Shown piece by piece: positions 20,101 to 44,194 of a stretch of DNA of 64,000 bases; within the stretch, counting starts at the first letter, position 1; every line of letters begins with the position of its first letter. Source of the stretch: Actinoplanes aureus. GTDB lineage: Bacteria > Actinomycetota > Actinomycetes > Mycobacteriales > Micromonosporaceae. The stretch is taken from positions 232,691 through 296,690 of the forward strand of contig NZ_JADQTO010000005.1 of the NCBI RefSeq assembly GCF_015704865.1. Direction: 5' to 3'. The notes beneath the pieces were generated by a model. The model ran no database searches. It had not been told where the DNA came from and was given only the letters and a program-made list of their open reading frames with translations. The position numbers and the translations under genes are program-made.

Positions 20101-20597
20101 ACCGGCTTGTTCATCGTGACGAAGAGCAGCATCGAGACGATGATCATCGCGATCGCAGCCGGCCACCACACGAAGAACGCGGTGAAGATCGAGAGCGTCG
20201 CCAGGGCCATCGACTGGGCGAGCCGCACACCGGAACCGCGCAGCTCCGCCCCGACCTGGTAGACGTCCGAGTCGATCCGGTCGAGCAGCTCGCCGACCGG
20301 CGTGTTCTCCAGAGCCGGCAGAGGCTGCCCGAAGGCCACCCGGTTGAGGCCGCGCCGGACCCGCGCCGCCCAGTCCGCGGTCAGCCGGGCCGCGATCAGC
20401 CCGACCGAGACGTCGGTGAGCACCGCGGCCACCAGGGCGGCGGCCAGCAGCACGAAGAGCGAGAAGGACCGGTCGACGAGCACCGGCCCGGCCAGCGCGA
20501 GGGCGCCCGCCGAGCCCGCGGCTCCGAGAACGATCAGGAACGCGACCAGAGCGGTGCGACTTCGGCTGGTGGCCCAAAGGTCGCGAAGCAGACGCAT
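17106..20597 (-). CDS. Fused ABC exporter with two membrane and two ATPase domains
   Basis: 1163 residues from ATG 20597 (GAGGA six bases upstream). Order: membrane domain 1 (about 15-290), ATPase 1 with Walker A GRTGSGKST near 355, a variant signature LSAGQ near 457 and Walker B VVILDEAT; then membrane domain 2 (about 620-890) and ATPase 2 with Walker A GPVGSGKSS near 972, signature LSGGQ and Walker B LLIADDVSS, where the catalytic Glu is replaced by Asp. All parts of an exporter are thus in one chain. The asymmetric ATPases suggest one active and one degenerate ATP site. Substrate unknown; monocistronic. Confidence 0.9.
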   Translation of the reverse strand: MRLLRDLWATSRSRTALVAFLIVLGAAGSAGALALAGPVLVDRSFSLFVLLAAALVAAVLTDVSVGLIAARLTADWAARVRRGLNRVAFGQPLPALENTPVGELLDRIDSDVYQVGAELRGSGVRLAQSMALATLSIFTAFFVWWPAAIAMIIVSMLLFVTMNKPVQRIGPIRIAEEEAWSDLAAVMEEAVHGQDDVRTNLAAPYVLRLYALRAREVLTRGRRVWRASARITMSAGAITRSLIAALVVAGAWALVAGHIDSARLTAVWLLALGFGGTLEHVTRMVPELQNALGAWSRVQMLSSVPQEPTDGLPPADGDLVVRNLTFRYGESDSNRPPALRDVSLTFARGRSYALIGRTGSGKSTLAKILTRAVDVPGGTVFLGGTDLNDLSVEGLRRWTAIVPQRTEILAGTLAENIALFDEELLPRAATAVEELGLSSWVAGLPDGIDTKLGEGGYKLSAGQEQLVAFARILVRDPQVVILDEATARMDPVTESWVQRATDRLLQGRIGVIVAHRLSSVQRCDEVVVLADGEVLEAGPLRSSQRFAELMASSNLTVPAAQTASGGVLLADPADRDWDTAVQVELGPDALTNPLPTVEPPPLPEPPRAHTMREITRLATNDARYGLGAVSLFLLLVLFGLDGAILPLLWANVVDGMGNPLYPAAGIAAALLLLIPTLYYTGAWFPEWWVRQMLRISLRLVHGQVGPRRVSKHTPAEVVAQGGDTERVVMLADNLIDNCVAVFTVVAMTLASQSVVPALFFVGTMLISGLAATMFGPRLEQAARRTVASRAAFATSLVSSLSAARTVKLAGATEPVLAHLAALDAKRSELQWREIAIQVWARSTPSIASGLLPIAAWGMYLSGQLTAAATLIAVATLGSARWFAWTTASLVSHFPSARVWTKRTAAMTGVSEYSAEVPGVDLAAGTAPAPPTAPRKSLRRLELDGFSAVHENGAVGVRDIDLTVDRGQLVLVVGPVGSGKSSLLRALAGIVHHTGELRWNDEPVREPEMFLRPNQVGYVAQLPRVLSGTVADNIQLGHEVDAEDAVSVAQLEHDLAASGGGLQLLIGHKGTRLSGGQLQRLALARALAPRTELLIADDVSSALDVTTELELWRALRSHGVTVVGSTSKRAALAQADKVVVLIGGQAEDQGTWDELADRWGHLAG

Positions 20598-21210
20598 GAA
20601 GAGTCCTCGGGCGGTAGGGGAAGGCGGTGTCCTCATCCTGCGCGGATTCCGGAGGGCTCCTCAACCGGTTTATTCCCGGCATTTCACCGAAAGGCGCAGG
20701 CCGCGCCGTCGCCCGCGTCCCTCTGACGAGAGCCGGCCCGGTGATCGGGCCGCTGGAGATCACCACGTCGCGGATGCCGAGAGCACCGCAAGCTCACCCT
20801 TCCGCACAACCCGCCCCGCCGCCGCGGTCCGAAAGCGATGCGCCGACGAGCCATCCAGATTCCGCGGTCAAGGTCTGCTGTGGTCATCCACCATCATCGG
20901 TACGGGCAACCGCCCGTCCCGCCGAACCGTCCCCGTCCCCACCTCCCAGCGCAAGCCAGCCGCCTCCCACGGCCCCAACGCGACCGCCGGGAAACAGCAC
21001 CGGCTCGTGCCCGGGCGCCGGGCCCGGCCGCGCGTGAACAAGGCGGGCTGAGTTCAGCTGGCGGCGAGGCACCTGATAGGGCCGTCGTTCGGTGGCTGGG
21101 CGCAGCCCGACAGGCGGCCTGCGGGGCCGGGCGCGGTGACGTCACGGTTGCGCTCCAGCGCCCGAGGGTGCCGGCGTCCGGCTGGCAGGGCCCAGGCGGT
21201 GATCTTGCTT

Positions 21211-21263
21211 GGCCCACGCTCAATGCTGTCTCAACGGCCGTCAGACAGCACCCACGTTGGGCC
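21211..21263. repeat. Large imperfect hairpin
   Basis: Outer arms GGCCCA (21211-21216)/TGGGCC (21258-21263) and inner arms TGCTGTCT (21224-21231)/AGACAGCA (21243-21250) are perfect, separated by a mismatched internal loop. The apical loop is 11 bases. Role unknown; it could be a terminator or part of a structured RNA. Confidence 0.45.
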
Positions 21264-21533
21264 GGACAAGACCCTGACCACGAAGGCTTTCTAGCCGCCG
21301 TCGCGTGGTGGGTTGGGGAATGCGGTGGATCGGGTGCGCTCGCACGCACCGGATCCACCACGATCCGCGCGACCGGCGGCAACCCCGCCAACGCCGGCTA
21401 CCCGACGTCGCCGGCTACCCGACGTCACTTCAGCCGTGCGCCAACCCCGCGTGATGACTGCAGCACCTACCCCAGGCAGCGGGCAGCGGGCCGCGGGTCG
21501 TGGGCGGCGTGCCGCGTGCGCCGTGCGGGCGGG

Positions 21534-21650
21534 CGGCCTGCGACGTGCGCTTGCGGCGTGCGGCCTGCGACGTGCGCTTGCGGCGTGCGGCCTGCGACGT
21601 GCGCTTGCGGCCTGCGACGTGCGGCCTGCGACGTGCGCCTGCGGCGTGGG
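21534..21650. repeat. 27-bp minisatellite
   Basis: Two full units beginning CGGCCTGCGACGTGCG at 21534 and 21561, then a shortened unit at 21588, a 14-bp remnant at 21608 and a diverged copy at 21622. There is no spacer between units, so it is not a CRISPR array. Confidence 0.8.
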
Positions 21651-21961
21651 GCGTGCGGTGTGCGGTGGGCGGTGGGCTGCACGCGGCGGGCCGCAGGCGG
21701 GCCGTGGTTGCTCGCGTTCGTCGCCGTGACCGGCAGGTGATGGTGTTTCCCGGGGGTCGCGCTGGGGCGGTGCGGGAAGGCCGGGCTCGCGCCGGGAGAG
21801 CGAGGACGGGCCGGCTCCGGCGGGACGGCCGGTCACGCGTACCCCGCAGGGGTGTGACCCGGCCGGTAGCGAACCGCGAGCGATCGGAGCGCCGGCATGG
21901 GCGCCCGTCAGGGCGCCGGCGAGCAGGACGGCCTGGGCTGGTCAGCGCGAGCGCGGCGGGG

Positions 21962-23143
21962 TCAGGGGGCCGGGCTGCGGAGGGTGAGCAGGGTGATCTC
22001 GCTGGGGGCGAAGATGCGGAACGGCGGGCCCCAGAAGCCGGTGCCGCGGCTCGTGTACAGCTGGGTGCGTTCGGAATGGCGGGACAGGCCCTGCAGCACC
22101 GGCTGGTCGGTACGGACCAGGTAGTGGAACGGCCAGATCTGGCCGCCGTGGGTGTGGCCGGAGAGCTGGAGGTCGACCCCGTGGGCGACCGCGCCGGTGA
22201 TCTGCTGTGGCTGGTGGGCTAGCAGCAGGATCGGCAGCTCGGGGTCGGTGCCGGCCAGAGCGGCGACGTGGTCGGCGTGGTGGCCGGGCAGGCCGGAGCC
22301 GGCGGCGGTCCGGTCGTCGACGCCGGCGACGATCAGGGAGTCGCCGCCTCGGGTGACCACCAGGTGCCGGTTGTGCAGGGCGTCCCAGCCGAGCGAGGTC
22401 ATGTGCTCGACCCAGCCGAGGGCGCCGCTGTAGTACTCGTGGTTGCCGGTCACGTAGACCCGTGCGTAGCGGGCGCGCACGTCACCGAGCGGTGAGGACT
22501 GGCTCAGACGCTGCTCGACCTGGCCGTCGGCGATGTCGCCGGTGTGCGCCACGATGTCCGGCTCGAGCGAGTTGATCACGTCGACCACGGCGCGGGACCA
22601 GCGGGACCGGTCGATCGGGCCGTAGTGGGTGTCGGTGATCAGCACGACGCGCAGCCCGTCGAGCCCGGGACCGAGCCGGGGCAGCACCACGTCGACCCGC
22701 CGGACCCGGGAGACGCGCATCGCCTCCGCGTACCCCCAGAGCAGCAGGGCCAGGGAGATCAGCAGGACCACCGCGGTGACCACCCGCGAGCGCACCGGAT
22801 CGGCGACGCCGGCCAGCGCCAGGACCAGGCCGAAGGCCTGGCCGATGATCGACCAGGTGAAGAGCACCCAGATCACGCCGAGCATGGTGTCGGCGACGCG
22901 CGAAGCGGCGTCGCTGTGCCCGCCGTGTCCCCGGAACATGAGCACCGGGAAAGCCCCGGCCGCCAGCACGAACACCACGGTGCCGGCGGCGAGGACCGGC
23001 GCCGGCCAGGCATTGCCGGACCACACCAGCGTCGCCCAGGGCACGCCGAACAGCAGCAGCAGAATCACCGCGACCAGCGAACCGAACCGTGCGCGCGGCG
23101 CGCGCCGTTTCGGCTCCGCCTCGACCGCCTCACCTACCGACAT
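21962..23143 (-). CDS. Membrane-bound metallophosphoesterase
   Basis: 393 residues from ATG 23143 (ATG 23155 or GTG 23257 would lengthen it). Four hydrophobic segments in the first 150 residues are followed by a calcineurin-like domain with all metal motifs: LITDTHYG, AHTGDIADG, VTGNHEYY, LLAHQPQQ and SGHTHGGQIWP. The GHTHGGQ ending and membrane N-terminus resemble YkuE/YaeI-type phosphodiesterases acting on lipid head groups. Substrate is inference. No partner gene is on the same strand nearby except the lipoprotein 48 bp upstream. Confidence 0.85.
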   Translation of the reverse strand: MSVGEAVEAEPKRRAPRARFGSLVAVILLLLFGVPWATLVWSGNAWPAPVLAAGTVVFVLAAGAFPVLMFRGHGGHSDAASRVADTMLGVIWVLFTWSIIGQAFGLVLALAGVADPVRSRVVTAVVLLISLALLLWGYAEAMRVSRVRRVDVVLPRLGPGLDGLRVVLITDTHYGPIDRSRWSRAVVDVINSLEPDIVAHTGDIADGQVEQRLSQSSPLGDVRARYARVYVTGNHEYYSGALGWVEHMTSLGWDALHNRHLVVTRGGDSLIVAGVDDRTAAGSGLPGHHADHVAALAGTDPELPILLLAHQPQQITGAVAHGVDLQLSGHTHGGQIWPFHYLVRTDQPVLQGLSRHSERTQLYTSRGTGFWGPPFRIFAPSEITLLTLRSPAP

Positions 23144-27313: not shown

Positions 27314-28377
27314 GCCGTTCGCACCGCCGGGACACCCCGGTAAGCCGTCGCGGCCTGCTCGGGCTCGCCGCGCTCGCCGTGCTGCCGGTCGCCGGCTTCG
27401 GCTACAGCCAGCTGAAGTCGGACGGCACCGCGTCCGGAGCCAGCCCGTCCGCCTCCGGGCGGGTTCCGGTCTCCGAGCCGTCGGCCCGCCCGACTCCGGA
27501 GCCGTTCGCGAGCGCCGACCCGAAGGTGAAGCTGGGCGGGACGGTCCCGTTCGTGCCCGGCAAGGCGCTGTTCGGCTCCTACCTGGGACTGGACGGCCTG
27601 GAGTACGCGGAGGCGCTCGCGCTGCGTAAGAAGCAGCTCGGCCGTGGCCAGCGGATCGTGCACCTGTTCTACGCGTGGGAGGACGACCTGCCGTCGTCCA
27701 TCCCGTACCTGCCCAAGGGCTCGATCCCGATGGTGTCCTGGCGCGGCCCGAAGCACGAGACGATCCTCAGCGGCGACGCCGACGACTACATCAAGGCGTC
27801 CGCCCGGCGCCTGCGCGACCTGGACCGGCCGGTTCTGCTGCGCTGGGGCTGGGAGATGAACGGCGACTGGTACGCGTGGAGCGGCTTCAAGAACAACAAG
27901 AACGCGCAGGGGTACGTGGACTGCTACCACCACCTCTGGAAGATCTTCGAGAAGGAGGGGGCCGACCAGGTCTCCTGGGTGTGGAGCCCGAACTGGAACA
28001 ACAGCCCCAACGAGGCGTGGAACCGGATGGAGGCGTACTACCCCGGTGACGAGTACGTCGACTGGGTGGGCGTCTCCGGCTACAACCTCCACGACGAGGA
28101 GCCGGCCACCCTGTTCGATCCGGTCTACCAGAAGTATTCGCCGCACAAGCCGCTCATGATCACGGAGATCGGGTCGGTGGACCGCGGCGGCACCAGCAAG
28201 GCCGACTGGATCAAGGACTTCGCGGCGTACGTCGTGCAGCGCCCGGCCATCGGCGGCGTGGTCTGGTTCGACACCGACACGCACCCGAGCTGGCCGGAGC
28301 GCTGGCGCATCGACACCGATGCGACGTCGACGGCGGCGTACAAGGCGATGGTGCAGAACCCCCGGTTCAGCGGCTGA
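27310..28377 (+). CDS. Tat-exported GH26-like glycoside hydrolase
   Basis: 355 residues. The N-terminus has a twin-arginine signal (VSRRGLLGLAALAVLPVAG), then a Ser/Pro-rich linker (about 40-75) and a TIM-barrel domain like family 26 mannanases. The acid/base Glu is seen in LLRWGWEMNGDWY and the nucleophile Glu in LMITEIGSVDRGG; WSPNWNNSPN and YYPGDEYVDWVGVSGYN are further family marks. It is coupled to the deacetylase gene, suggesting cleavage of a deacetylated surface glycan. The true substrate is unknown. Confidence 0.85.
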   Translation: MSRSHRRDTPVSRRGLLGLAALAVLPVAGFGYSQLKSDGTASGASPSASGRVPVSEPSARPTPEPFASADPKVKLGGTVPFVPGKALFGSYLGLDGLEYAEALALRKKQLGRGQRIVHLFYAWEDDLPSSIPYLPKGSIPMVSWRGPKHETILSGDADDYIKASARRLRDLDRPVLLRWGWEMNGDWYAWSGFKNNKNAQGYVDCYHHLWKIFEKEGADQVSWVWSPNWNNSPNEAWNRMEAYYPGDEYVDWVGVSGYNLHDEEPATLFDPVYQKYSPHKPLMITEIGSVDRGGTSKADWIKDFAAYVVQRPAIGGVVWFDTDTHPSWPERWRIDTDATSTAAYKAMVQNPRFSG

Positions 28378-28391
28378 CCGCCGAACCGGGG
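28360..28391. terminator. Hairpin over the end of the GH26-like gene
   Basis: 14-bp stem with one mismatch (28360-28373 with 28378-28391) and a 4-base loop that includes the stop codon. It separates this gene from the convergent second GH26-like gene, whose stop is at 28402. Confidence 0.6.
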
Positions 28392-28401
28392 ATTCCCGGC
28401 G

Positions 28402-29679
28402 TCAGGACTTGTAGAGCGAGCGGTACACGTCCGACGACCCGCTGGTGTCGGCCATGCACTTCGGGTCGTCCGGGCGCAGGATGCTGGACTGGTTGGTCTT
28501 CCCGTCGCACCGCTGGAAGTACGCCTCGTACGCCAGGTACGGCGCGTGCTCGGCGAACCAGCCGTGCATCCAGCGGATGAACTCCGGGTTGTCCTTCTTG
28601 GCGTCGCTGAACGGCATCACGCCCCACTCGCCCACCGAGAACAGCTTCCCGTGCTGCTGGGCGAAGACGAACAGCCAGTTCAGGCCGTCCTCCCGGTCGG
28701 CGGTCGCGTCGAACTCCGCCTTCGTCGGCGACCACGGCCAATGGTCGTAGTTGTCGATGCCGATGATGTCGACGTACTCGTCACCGGGATAGCAGTTCGT
28801 GGTCAGCCCGCCGCACAGCTCGTCCGGGGTGTTGTGCGCGTTGATCGACCAGTCCAGGACGACCTTCGGATTCGTCGACCGGATGGCGTCGGCCGCGCGC
28901 CGGTAGCAGGCGATGTAGTCCTCGGTGTCGAGGGCGCGCCAGCCCATCGACTCCTCGTTCATCTCCCAGCCCAGCCGGACCACCGAGTCACCGCGGCCGT
29001 GCCGGACCATCAGCGAGCCGAAGTCCCGCCAGTGCTGGTCGTAGTCGCCGGCGGCGCAGTCGTCCACGAGTTCCTCGCGCTTGTTCGGCACCAGGCCCTG
29101 GGAGACGACCAGGACCCCGTCGAAGTTGTCGAAGAACTCGAACGTCCAGCCGGTGCCCCGGGTCATCGACTCGTAGCTGGTGCGGTCGGTGTAGGTCTGC
29201 GTCACGTTGCAGGGGCGGCCGCGGGCGGTGCAGAAGGTCCGCACCGATGCGGTGTTCAGGAGCGGGAAGCCGTTGACGCCGGACAGCCCGTACTCGCCGG
29301 GCCAGCTTCCGGCCGCCCGGGGCAGCGAGAACTGGGTGCGGGCCGAGCGTTTCCCGGCCTTCGTCGACGCGGCGGCGACCGCCGCCGCGGTGGGCATCAG
29401 GGTCGGCACGGGCGCGGGCGCGGCGGACGACGGCGCGGCGGAGACCACCGCGGACGCCGAGGGTGCCGGGGCGGTCGCGCTGGCCGCGACGGCGGACGGC
29501 TGCGTGGCGGCTGTCTCGGTGCCCGAGTCACCGCCCAGGCGGCTCGCCAGGCCGATCCCGGCGGCGAGCAGGACCGCTCCGGCGGCGGCAAGCAGGATCC
29601 GGCCGCGCCGGGACCGGGCCGCGGGTTTGGGCTCGGGCGGACCCGAGGGATTGTCGGCGGATGGTGGCGCGTCGGCCAT
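28402..29679 (-). CDS. Membrane-anchored GH26-like glycoside hydrolase
   Basis: 425 residues from ATG 29679 (GGAGA seven bases upstream). A Pro-rich cytoplasmic start is followed by one membrane segment (RRGRILLAAAGAVLLAAGIGLAS, about 25-47), a long Ala/Ser/Pro linker, and a hydrolase domain. VVRLGWEMNEESMGWRA holds the likely acid Glu and LFSVGEWGVMPFSD the likely nucleophile, with DWSINAHNT and CYPGDEYVDIIGIDNYD between. Six or more cysteines in the domain fit an extracellular location. It is a distant paralogue of the preceding Tat-exported protein and probably acts on the same surface glycan. Confidence 0.83.
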   Translation of the reverse strand: MADAPPSADNPSGPPEPKPAARSRRGRILLAAAGAVLLAAGIGLASRLGGDSGTETAATQPSAVAASATAPAPSASAVVSAAPSSAAPAPVPTLMPTAAAVAAASTKAGKRSARTQFSLPRAAGSWPGEYGLSGVNGFPLLNTASVRTFCTARGRPCNVTQTYTDRTSYESMTRGTGWTFEFFDNFDGVLVVSQGLVPNKREELVDDCAAGDYDQHWRDFGSLMVRHGRGDSVVRLGWEMNEESMGWRALDTEDYIACYRRAADAIRSTNPKVVLDWSINAHNTPDELCGGLTTNCYPGDEYVDIIGIDNYDHWPWSPTKAEFDATADREDGLNWLFVFAQQHGKLFSVGEWGVMPFSDAKKDNPEFIRWMHGWFAEHAPYLAYEAYFQRCDGKTNQSSILRPDDPKCMADTSGSSDVYRSLYKS

Positions 29680-41980: not shown

Positions 41981-42946
41981 ATGCGGACGCTGGGCGGGCG
42001 TTATCAACTGGTGAACCGCATCGGACTGGGCGGCATGTCCGAGGTATGGCGCGGACACGACCAGGTGCTGGACCGGCCGGTGGCCGTGAAGATCATGGCG
42101 CCGGCGGTGGAGGGCACCCTCGGCGAGGTCGGGGTGGAACTGGTCCGGGCCGAGGCTCGCTCGGCCGCCCGGCTGGCGCATCCCAACGTGGCCGGGGTGC
42201 ACGACTTCGGCACCTCGCCGGCGCCGGGACGCGACGTCCCGTACATCGTGATGGAGCTGGTCGAGGGCCAGACCCTCAGCCGGCACCTCGCCGCCGGCCG
42301 GCTGGACTGGCGCATCGGCGTACGCATCTGCGCCGAGGTCGCGGCCGCGCTCGCCGCGGCCCACGCCGAGCAGGTGGTGCATCGCGACATCAAACCGGCG
42401 AACATCATGCTTACCCCGGCCGGCGCCAAGGTCCTCGACTTCGGCATCGCCGCCGCCGTCGGCTCGCCCGACCCGGACCCGGACGGCCCGGTGATGGGCA
42501 CCCCCGCCTACATCGCCCCGGAACGCTTCGAAGGCATGCCGGCCACCCCGGCGACCGACATGTTCGCCCTCGGCACGCTCATCTATCACTGCATCTCCGG
42601 CCGGCTGCCGTGGAGCGCCCGCACCAACACCGAACTCGTCGTCGCCGAGCGCTTCGAAGACCCGGAACCCCTCCCGCACATCGACGGCCTGCCACCCGAG
42701 GTGCTCGACCTCTGCTCCCGCTGCCTCGCGAAGGACCCGGCCGACCGGCCGACCGCCCTGGTAGCCGCGCTGCTGCTGGCCGAAGCGGTCGACGCCCGCG
42801 TCTACGTCCCGCTCGCCGACCTCGAACCCGATCTGCAGCGCGCACCGGCGATCTCCCCATGGGATGAGGCCGCGGCCTCCGCGCCCACCTCGGCGGCACC
42901 GCGCGCTGCGGCCCCTTCCCGGGGAGGCCGGCACCGGGCAGGCTGA
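41981..42946 (+). CDS. Soluble Ser/Thr protein kinase (PknB-like)
   Basis: 321 residues from ATG 41981 with a strong GGAGGAGG site. A complete eukaryotic-type kinase: glycine loop RIGLGGMSEVWRG, VAVKIM lysine, catalytic loop VVHRDIKPANIM, LDFGIA, and TPAYIAPERFEG. The domain ends near residue 270, and the remaining 50 residues are Ala/Pro-rich without a membrane segment or PASTA repeats, so it is a cytoplasmic kinase. It stands alone; the inverted repeat begins 21 bp after its stop. Confidence 0.93.
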   Translation: MRTLGGRYQLVNRIGLGGMSEVWRGHDQVLDRPVAVKIMAPAVEGTLGEVGVELVRAEARSAARLAHPNVAGVHDFGTSPAPGRDVPYIVMELVEGQTLSRHLAAGRLDWRIGVRICAEVAAALAAAHAEQVVHRDIKPANIMLTPAGAKVLDFGIAAAVGSPDPDPDGPVMGTPAYIAPERFEGMPATPATDMFALGTLIYHCISGRLPWSARTNTELVVAERFEDPEPLPHIDGLPPEVLDLCSRCLAKDPADRPTALVAALLLAEAVDARVYVPLADLEPDLQRAPAISPWDEAAASAPTSAAPRAAAPSRGGRHRAG

Positions 42947-42967
42947 GCATTTCGCTCATTCTCTTTC

Positions 42968-43310
42968 GGGGTACGGGTAGCCGGCCGTCCCGCCGATCAA
43001 CGGCCGTTCCCGCCCTCCCGCGCGATCACCGCACGGCGAGACGCCCCACCGCGCCCGCCGGGCCCATGCAGCCACGCGGGCTTACTTCGGCGATGTTCCC
43101 ACCTGCTGGGAGCGACCCGATGCGTCCGTGAGCGGCCGGGGTGAGGGCGCTGCGGTTGGGCGGTCGAGGGCGCTGCGGTGGGCCGACTCAGCGCGCCGCG
43201 GTGGGTCGTGCTCAGCCCGGCGGGCGCGCTGGGGCCTCTCCCCGTGCGGTGATCGCGCGGGAGGGCGGGGACGGCCATTGATCGGCGGGACGGCCGGCTA
43301 CCCGTACCCC
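42968..43310. repeat. 96-bp inverted repeat with 151-bp spacer
   Basis: The left arm 42968-43063 and right arm 43215-43310 are reverse complements at 91 of 96 positions by direct comparison. Both begin with GGGGTACGGGTAGCCGGCCG, reading inward. The spacer has direct copies of GAGGGCGCTGCGGT. The element fills the gap between the kinase gene and the convergent stress-protein gene and contains no plausible protein frame. It could be a strong bidirectional terminator, a MITE-like palindrome or a structured RNA. Confidence 0.85.
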
Positions 43311-43319
43311 GATTGGGTT

Positions 43320-44194
43320 TCAAGAAGCCCGTGGGACTACGACCAGGGGCCGGCAGGCTCGGCGCAGCAGGCGGGTGGAGACGCCGCCGAGCAGTACCCG
43401 GCAGGCCGGGCCGTAGCCGCGCGAGCCGCAGAACAGGATGTCGACCTCGCCGAGGTCGGCCAGGGCCTCGACCACGTCGCCGGAGCGGATCTCCCAGTCG
43501 GCCTGGACGTCCGGGACGGAGGCGGCGGCCTTGCGCAGGGCCTCTTCGTAGATCTCCCGGCTGGTGTCCAGGAAGGCCCGCTCGGCGTCCTCGCCCAGCA
43601 GGAACGGCATCGCGGCGTCGCCGTGCGCGACGACGGTGACCAGCAGCAGCGGGCTCCCGGTACGCCGGGCTAGCCGGGCCGCCTCGGTGAGCGCGGCCCG
43701 GCCGTCGGGCGTGTCCACGTAGGCGACGCCGATCCGGCCGATCGTGCCGGGTTCGTGCGGCATCCCGGCCGGGGCCACCGCGACCGGGCAGACACTGCCG
43801 GCGAGCAGGCGTTCTGCGGTCTTGCCGGCGAACAGCCGGGCGGCGGGACCGGCCGAACCGGAGCCGACCACGAGCAGCGAGGCGTGCGTCTGCTCGGCCA
43901 GGTCGTGCAGCCCGTGCGCGGCCGACGTGGAGGCGACCGTGCGGTACTCCACGCCGGGCGGGTCGCCGAGCGTGCCGCGGGCCTCGGCGAGCACCTCCTC
44001 GGCCGCCCGCTGCCGGTCGGCGACCCACTCCGCGTCGACGCGGCCGGAGCCGAGCGCCGACGCGGCCGGACGGACCACCGTGACGATCAACGGGACGTCG
44101 AGGAGCCGCGCCGCCCAGCGGCCCAGGGCGAGCGCGTCGGCGGCGGCCGCGCCCCGGTCGACGCCGACCAGGACCGGGCCGGTGGCCGGGGCGG

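Follow-up and report, generated by a model that had tools for sequence, protein, structure and literature searches.

An inverted repeat between convergent kinase and universal stress protein genes of Actinoplanes aureus consists of two copies of a dispersed intergenic unit

The window—the whole stretch of 64,000 nucleotides of Actinoplanes aureus DNA that was analyzed—features an inverted repeat between two convergent genes. The protein kinase gene (PF00069; 41981–42946, + strand) ends with its stop codon at 42946, and the stop codon of the universal stress protein (USP) gene (PF00582; 43320–44198, − strand) begins at 43320. These gene calls, including the start codon of the kinase gene, stem from a simple codon-score caller made for this analysis and not from a standard program. 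Most of the 373-bp gap is taken up by arm 1 (42966–43063, + strand), a spacer of 151 bp (43064–43214), and arm 2 (43215–43312, − strand). The arms have a length of 98 nt each and are complementary at 93 of 98 positions (95%), the five mismatches being the pairs 43001/43277, 43008/43270, 43037/43241, 43042/43236, and 43049/43229. The preliminary description of this locus had the convergent setting right and gave coordinates, arm length, and mismatch count correctly to within about 2 bp. Arm 1, into which the kinase gene reads, carries the motif GGTACG—its head—at 42970–42975, facing the kinase gene, and its tail points inward. Arm 2 is the same unit in inverted orientation, with the head facing the USP gene that reads into it. 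The spacer contains a 23-nt tandem pair (43143–43188). A scan for inverted pairs of at least 40 nt within 1.5 kb returns three pairs in the window including the arms, and the remaining two are far weaker (50 nt at 76% and 43 nt at 72%). Both of these weak matches are located at 27846–28972 and possibly represent two related genes on opposite strands.

The predicted RNA fold of positions 42950–43330 has an energy of −312 kcal/mol (z = −18.9 against 100 shuffles), in line with the extended RNA hairpin that had been proposed for this locus. Within the 98-bp arms, there is no match to an intrinsic terminator, i.e., a short GC-rich stem with a T run directly after it. One small terminator-like hairpin (42944–42958, + strand) precedes arm 1; it overlaps the kinase stop codon, its T-rich tail reaches the arm, and it is a consensus match only. 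Comparison with Rfam yields chance-level matches in 42700–43600 and none in 20500–22000, with the gathering score reached in neither stretch.

Each arm is a single copy of a dispersed intergenic unit of ~100 bp. The window's own genome (G000) is a draft of 10.74 Mb in 108 contigs and is rated 100% complete. A search of the region against this genome gives at least 85 matches, one copy usually matching both arms, and a sequence-only model of the unit matches at at least 150 places; copy counts from such genome-wide searches are lower bounds. The unit extends from the head GGTACG to the tail CCCCAnCGCGnCCGCCGGG. Alignment of 49 copies reveals no variation in the head and very little in the tail, and a variable stretch separates the two. 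An unbiased sample, made up of 40 segments of 20 kb each that were picked by position, contains 32 units in 800 kb and, together with the window, 36 units in 864 kb (at least 18 bits); the reversed-sequence control of the sample contains none at 15 bits or more. Extrapolation leads to ~430 units per 10.7-Mb genome, with a range of ~280–580 from counting error alone. The proposed check for further genome copies is therefore strongly positive. Copying of the unit appears to have been recent because unlinked copies in G000 reach identities of up to 97% over 108 nt. No plasmid or phage relative of the unit was matched, and no description of the family was found in the literature, as judged mostly from titles and abstract openings, with subscription journals thinly covered. 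The exact consensus pattern occurs in none of 84,980 species genomes; the pattern covers just some of the copies, and closely related records are possibly absent from the collection, so this count is not evidence of absence.

That a long hairpin is the defining feature is not supported: many units are single, a single unit does not fold beyond chance, and the spacers of doublets range from 2 to ~850 bp. Taken by itself, arm 1 has a fold no stronger than those of its shuffles (z = 0.27). The consensus fold of the 49-copy alignment consists of seven weak pairs with no two-sided changes, and the consensus fold of the head together with its upstream sequence is empty. On these grounds, a conserved RNA structure in the unit is rejected. 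A stem formed by the head with the preceding sequence is rejected as well (mean fold of −22.0 for own and −21.8 for swapped sequence); the shortest stretch alone gives a slight excess (−12.2 own, −11.7 swapped). Nor are units generally placed after intrinsic terminators, as upstream stretches have z ≤ −2 in 8 of 104 cases compared with 6 of 104 in the control. What is conserved in the unit is its sequence, which would suit recognition as DNA or as unstructured RNA. Read in the sense of the gene, the unit is C-rich (47% C versus 32% G)—possibly a mild hint at Rho loading.

Units occur either singly or as doublets, and the doublets are nearly always head-out. This orientation is seen for all 11 pairs of neighbors less than 1 kb apart in the unbiased sample plus window, for 20 of 20 pairs within the best 150 matches, and for 32 of 33 over all fetched loci, three sets that overlap. 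A weak partial neighbor in the same direction was seen at locus L022 under an earlier model and is absent from the 33-pair set. Among intergenic regions of at least 80 bp, a unit is present in 9 of the 40 between convergent genes, in 12 of the 152 between tandem genes, and in 1 of the 106 between divergent genes, the unit-bearing regions being counted by eye (convergent versus divergent, P = 3e-5). Units avoid divergent intergenic regions and favor convergent ones. In hit-selected loci, a gene reads into the head of 75 of 104 copies, with a median distance of 24 nt behind the stop codon; 28 copies face the opposite way at 53 nt or more from the gene, and one copy is without a call. Direction by itself is no rule, since no more than 8 of the 13 single units in the unbiased sample have a gene reading into them (again counted by eye); the rules are the avoidance of divergent regions and the pairing in doublets. 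All 36 sampled units lie outside the neighboring genes predicted by the simple caller, with positive distances wherever a gene is in reach. Conservation is not clearly higher in paired than in single units, which score 40.3 and 35.7 bits, respectively (18 and 14 units; P = 0.26).

The spacers of doublets have only patches of other repeats in common, and the spacer 43064–43214 has no match at E 1e-3 among the spacers of other doublet loci. The window contains a second head-out doublet (20898–21844), consisting of a left unit at 20898–20998 (+ strand) and a right unit at 21743–21844 (− strand), both of which match the model of the arms' family and lie 748 bp apart. Its spacer carries several other repeats. 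One of these, at 21178–21307, is a near-palindromic module of ~100 bp that belongs to another dispersed family, is present in several doublet spacers, and has no match in Rfam; it gives 12 matches in 864 kb at E 1e-5, most of them 87–96% identical.

Named relatives of the USP gene put G000 in or close to Actinoplanes (Micromonosporaceae). Within the genus, the unit is matched in 19 of 67 genomes at E 1e-5, the window's own genome included. Under the stricter filters of this survey, G073 has at least 60 matches and the remaining carriers at least 1 to 29. The 12 genomes of other families among 30 relatives have none. The rich carrier G073 is a single-contig genome, and its neighbors less than 1 kb apart are head-out in 5 of 5 cases. 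The earlier concern that the arms are an assembly artefact is unlikely to hold because the unit recurs at at least 150 places in G000 and at least 60 in G073, there also as head-out doublets. In a sample of G010, a different GGTACG-headed repeat is enriched behind genes (24 of 235 3′ regions, 8.0 expected) and also forms head-out pairs, e.g., 15623(+)/15947(−) at locus L210 and 621(+)/881(−) at locus L207. Homology of these repeats to the unit of the window is not supported by HMM, with a best score of 8.4 bits versus 8.9 bits in the reversed control.

The kinase–USP site was compared across three sets of relatives, as had been suggested. In the first set, both genes are in reach in 7 of 11 cases; six of these have gaps of −72 to 8 bp, and the seventh has one of 615 bp. 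The second set of 28 loci has both genes in 23, with a gap of at most 40 bp in 15 and of at least 600 bp in 8. Among seven further loci from unit-carrying genomes, both genes are present in four, with gaps of 223 bp in G073, 267 bp in G078, 59 bp in G056, and 10 bp in G060. The kinase and USP stop codons thus nearly touch or overlap in most relatives, where the gap filled by the arms is absent or nearly so; these sites are too distant for a base-by-base alignment of the empty site with its ends and target duplication. The 267-bp gap of G078 (L290) is filled with repeated small hairpins on GCTGTCTC/GAGACAGC. Different species would seem to gain different repeats at this site, since the gap of G078 holds other hairpins. 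At three further loci of the element, gene order is not kept in G007 and G010.

In G073, the kinase and USP genes share 90% and 87% DNA identity, respectively, with those of G000. A single unit follows the kinase stop codon there, and none is detected on the USP side. This lone unit is 64–66% identical to the arms, which are 93–95% identical to each other in G000. Most likely, the second arm was copied in inverted orientation, or the two arms were homogenized, after the split from G073, because the arms are so much more alike than either is to the unit of G073. Across 30 doublets, partner arms have a mean identity of 0.711 versus 0.673 for re-paired arms (P = 0.0003). The pair at 42966–43312 is one of three very similar doublets (identity of at least 0.85), and among the remaining 27 (below 0.85), the values are 0.689 and 0.674 (P ~0.05). 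Duplex energies of the doublets agree with this result. Most doublets accordingly consist of two units that evolve separately. The preliminary description had offered two readings of the five mismatches—long persistence or maintenance by conversion. Conversion, or a recent inverted copy, fits; an old palindrome held by selection does not, because partner arms are mostly no closer than re-paired ones and G073 is one-sided. The kinase–USP site makes the origin of inverted pairs testable, with one unit in a relative and two in G000.

The inverted repeat is probably a head-out doublet of a lineage-expanded, non-autonomous, REPIN/BIME-like repeat of ~100 bp of the Actinoplanes group. A unit would first have come to sit behind the kinase stop codon, and the arm before the USP stop codon would be a later inverted copy, or both arms would have been equalized by conversion. 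The units would be copied by an enzyme other than a Y1 (RAYT-type) transposase and would survive only where neither a gene nor a promoter is cut. A transcript of either gene would read both arms and may fold into a long hairpin, limiting read-through between the genes. Such a two-way transcription barrier is plausible, and a hairpin of this kind would be the likeliest effect on the two genes. The little excess pairing of partner arms speaks against selection for the hairpin, since the pairing advantage is only marginal once the three very similar pairs are removed.

Four other explanations have to be weighed against this reading. A 3′-end signal—a two-way terminator or RNA-stabilizing hairpin under selection, with spread being secondary—would account for the enrichment of units between convergent genes, for the median of 24 nt behind the stop codon among the copies read into in hit-selected loci, and for the very stable predicted fold of the doublet 42966–43312; in a variant, the C-rich sense strand (47% C, 32% G) would serve as a Rho-loading site. 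We regard it as unlikely, since single units have neither a conserved fold nor a clear direction bias (8 of 13 in the unbiased sample), most genes lack the unit, and doublets have little excess pairing. It is unlikely, too, that the locus is a MITE moving as a whole, the arms being its ~100-bp terminal inverted repeats and single units being remnants after the loss of one end. The near-constant head-out orientation, the best conservation at head and tail, and the 373 bp present here where the stop codons of most relatives nearly touch are in favor of such an element. Against it are the spacers, which range from 2 to ~850 bp and have only patches of other repeats in common, the partner arms, most of which resemble each other no more than they resemble arms at other loci, and the lone unit of G073 at this very site.

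The conservation of sequence instead of RNA structure and the alternation of conserved blocks with variable stretches in the unit would also agree with DNA sites that are distributed along the chromosome and bound by a nucleoid or chromosome protein, a doublet then offering two such sites in inverted orientation. An essential site of this kind would hardly be matched in only 19 of 67 genus genomes at E 1e-5, which makes this explanation quite improbable. An ordinary intrinsic terminator or an artefact of assembly is least credible and very nearly discounted: the convergent location, the strong predicted fold, and the draft state of the assembly with its 108 contigs may suggest one or the other, but the arms belong to a homologous dispersed family that is also present in a single-contig genome, and the sole terminator-like match is the small one before arm 1.

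Intergenic repeats of the REP type usually go together with RAYT transposases. PF01797 (Y1_Tnp) has no match in the 108 contigs of G000, and the identical search is positive in 5 of 14 control genomes. Membership of the unit in the REP/RAYT system is rejected, as it is ~100 nt long without a palindromic fold and PF01797 is absent from the search of G000. The doublet reading preferred above has a bolder extension, in which these repeats form a new class of mobile interspersed repeats within the Actinoplanes group. Their units would be long and non-palindromic, arranged in head-out pairs at gene ends, moved by an enzyme unrelated to RAYTs, and subject to fast turnover between species. This extension can be put forward tentatively and is somewhat doubtful. 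Several hundred copies and a near-absolute head-out rule, with no Y1 transposase found, would suggest that the repeat spreads by a different route and perhaps that gene ends are marked by different means.

DNA uptake motifs are about ten bases long. Passages of one account describe uptake sequences as inverted intergenic pairs that were proposed to be terminators, a contentious proposal, and place many of them inside genes (PMC2346458). The repeat of the window resembles them as a dispersed motif in inverted intergenic pairs and differs in that its unit has ~100 bp and is intergenic. With MITEs, it shares inverted ends around a short noncoding interior and extra DNA where most relatives are empty; the differences are the lack of a shared interior, with spacers sharing only patches, and the many single ends. 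REPINs are characterized, in parts of a study of these elements, as dispersed extragenic repeats with several hundred copies that are mostly inverted as doublets and form hairpins, built from short REPs whose best-conserved part is a 16-mer and which are linked to a RAYT transposase gene (PMC3116915). The window's repeat is likewise extragenic, with ~430 copies and over-represented inverted doublets (11 of 11 head-out). It departs from REPINs by the length of its unit, which has no fold of its own, and by the Y1 transposase not being found in G000. The BIMEs of enterobacteria, as portrayed in sections of another source, consist of two inversely oriented repeats with a variable linker, the palindromic REPs carrying GTAG and being recognized by TnpA(REP) (PMC8266576), and an excerpt of a further study reports REPs to be frequent between convergent genes (PMC1525189). 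The unit of the window is not a palindrome, in contrast to those of BIMEs; what its family has in common with them are the head-out doublets with other repeat modules in part of their spacers.
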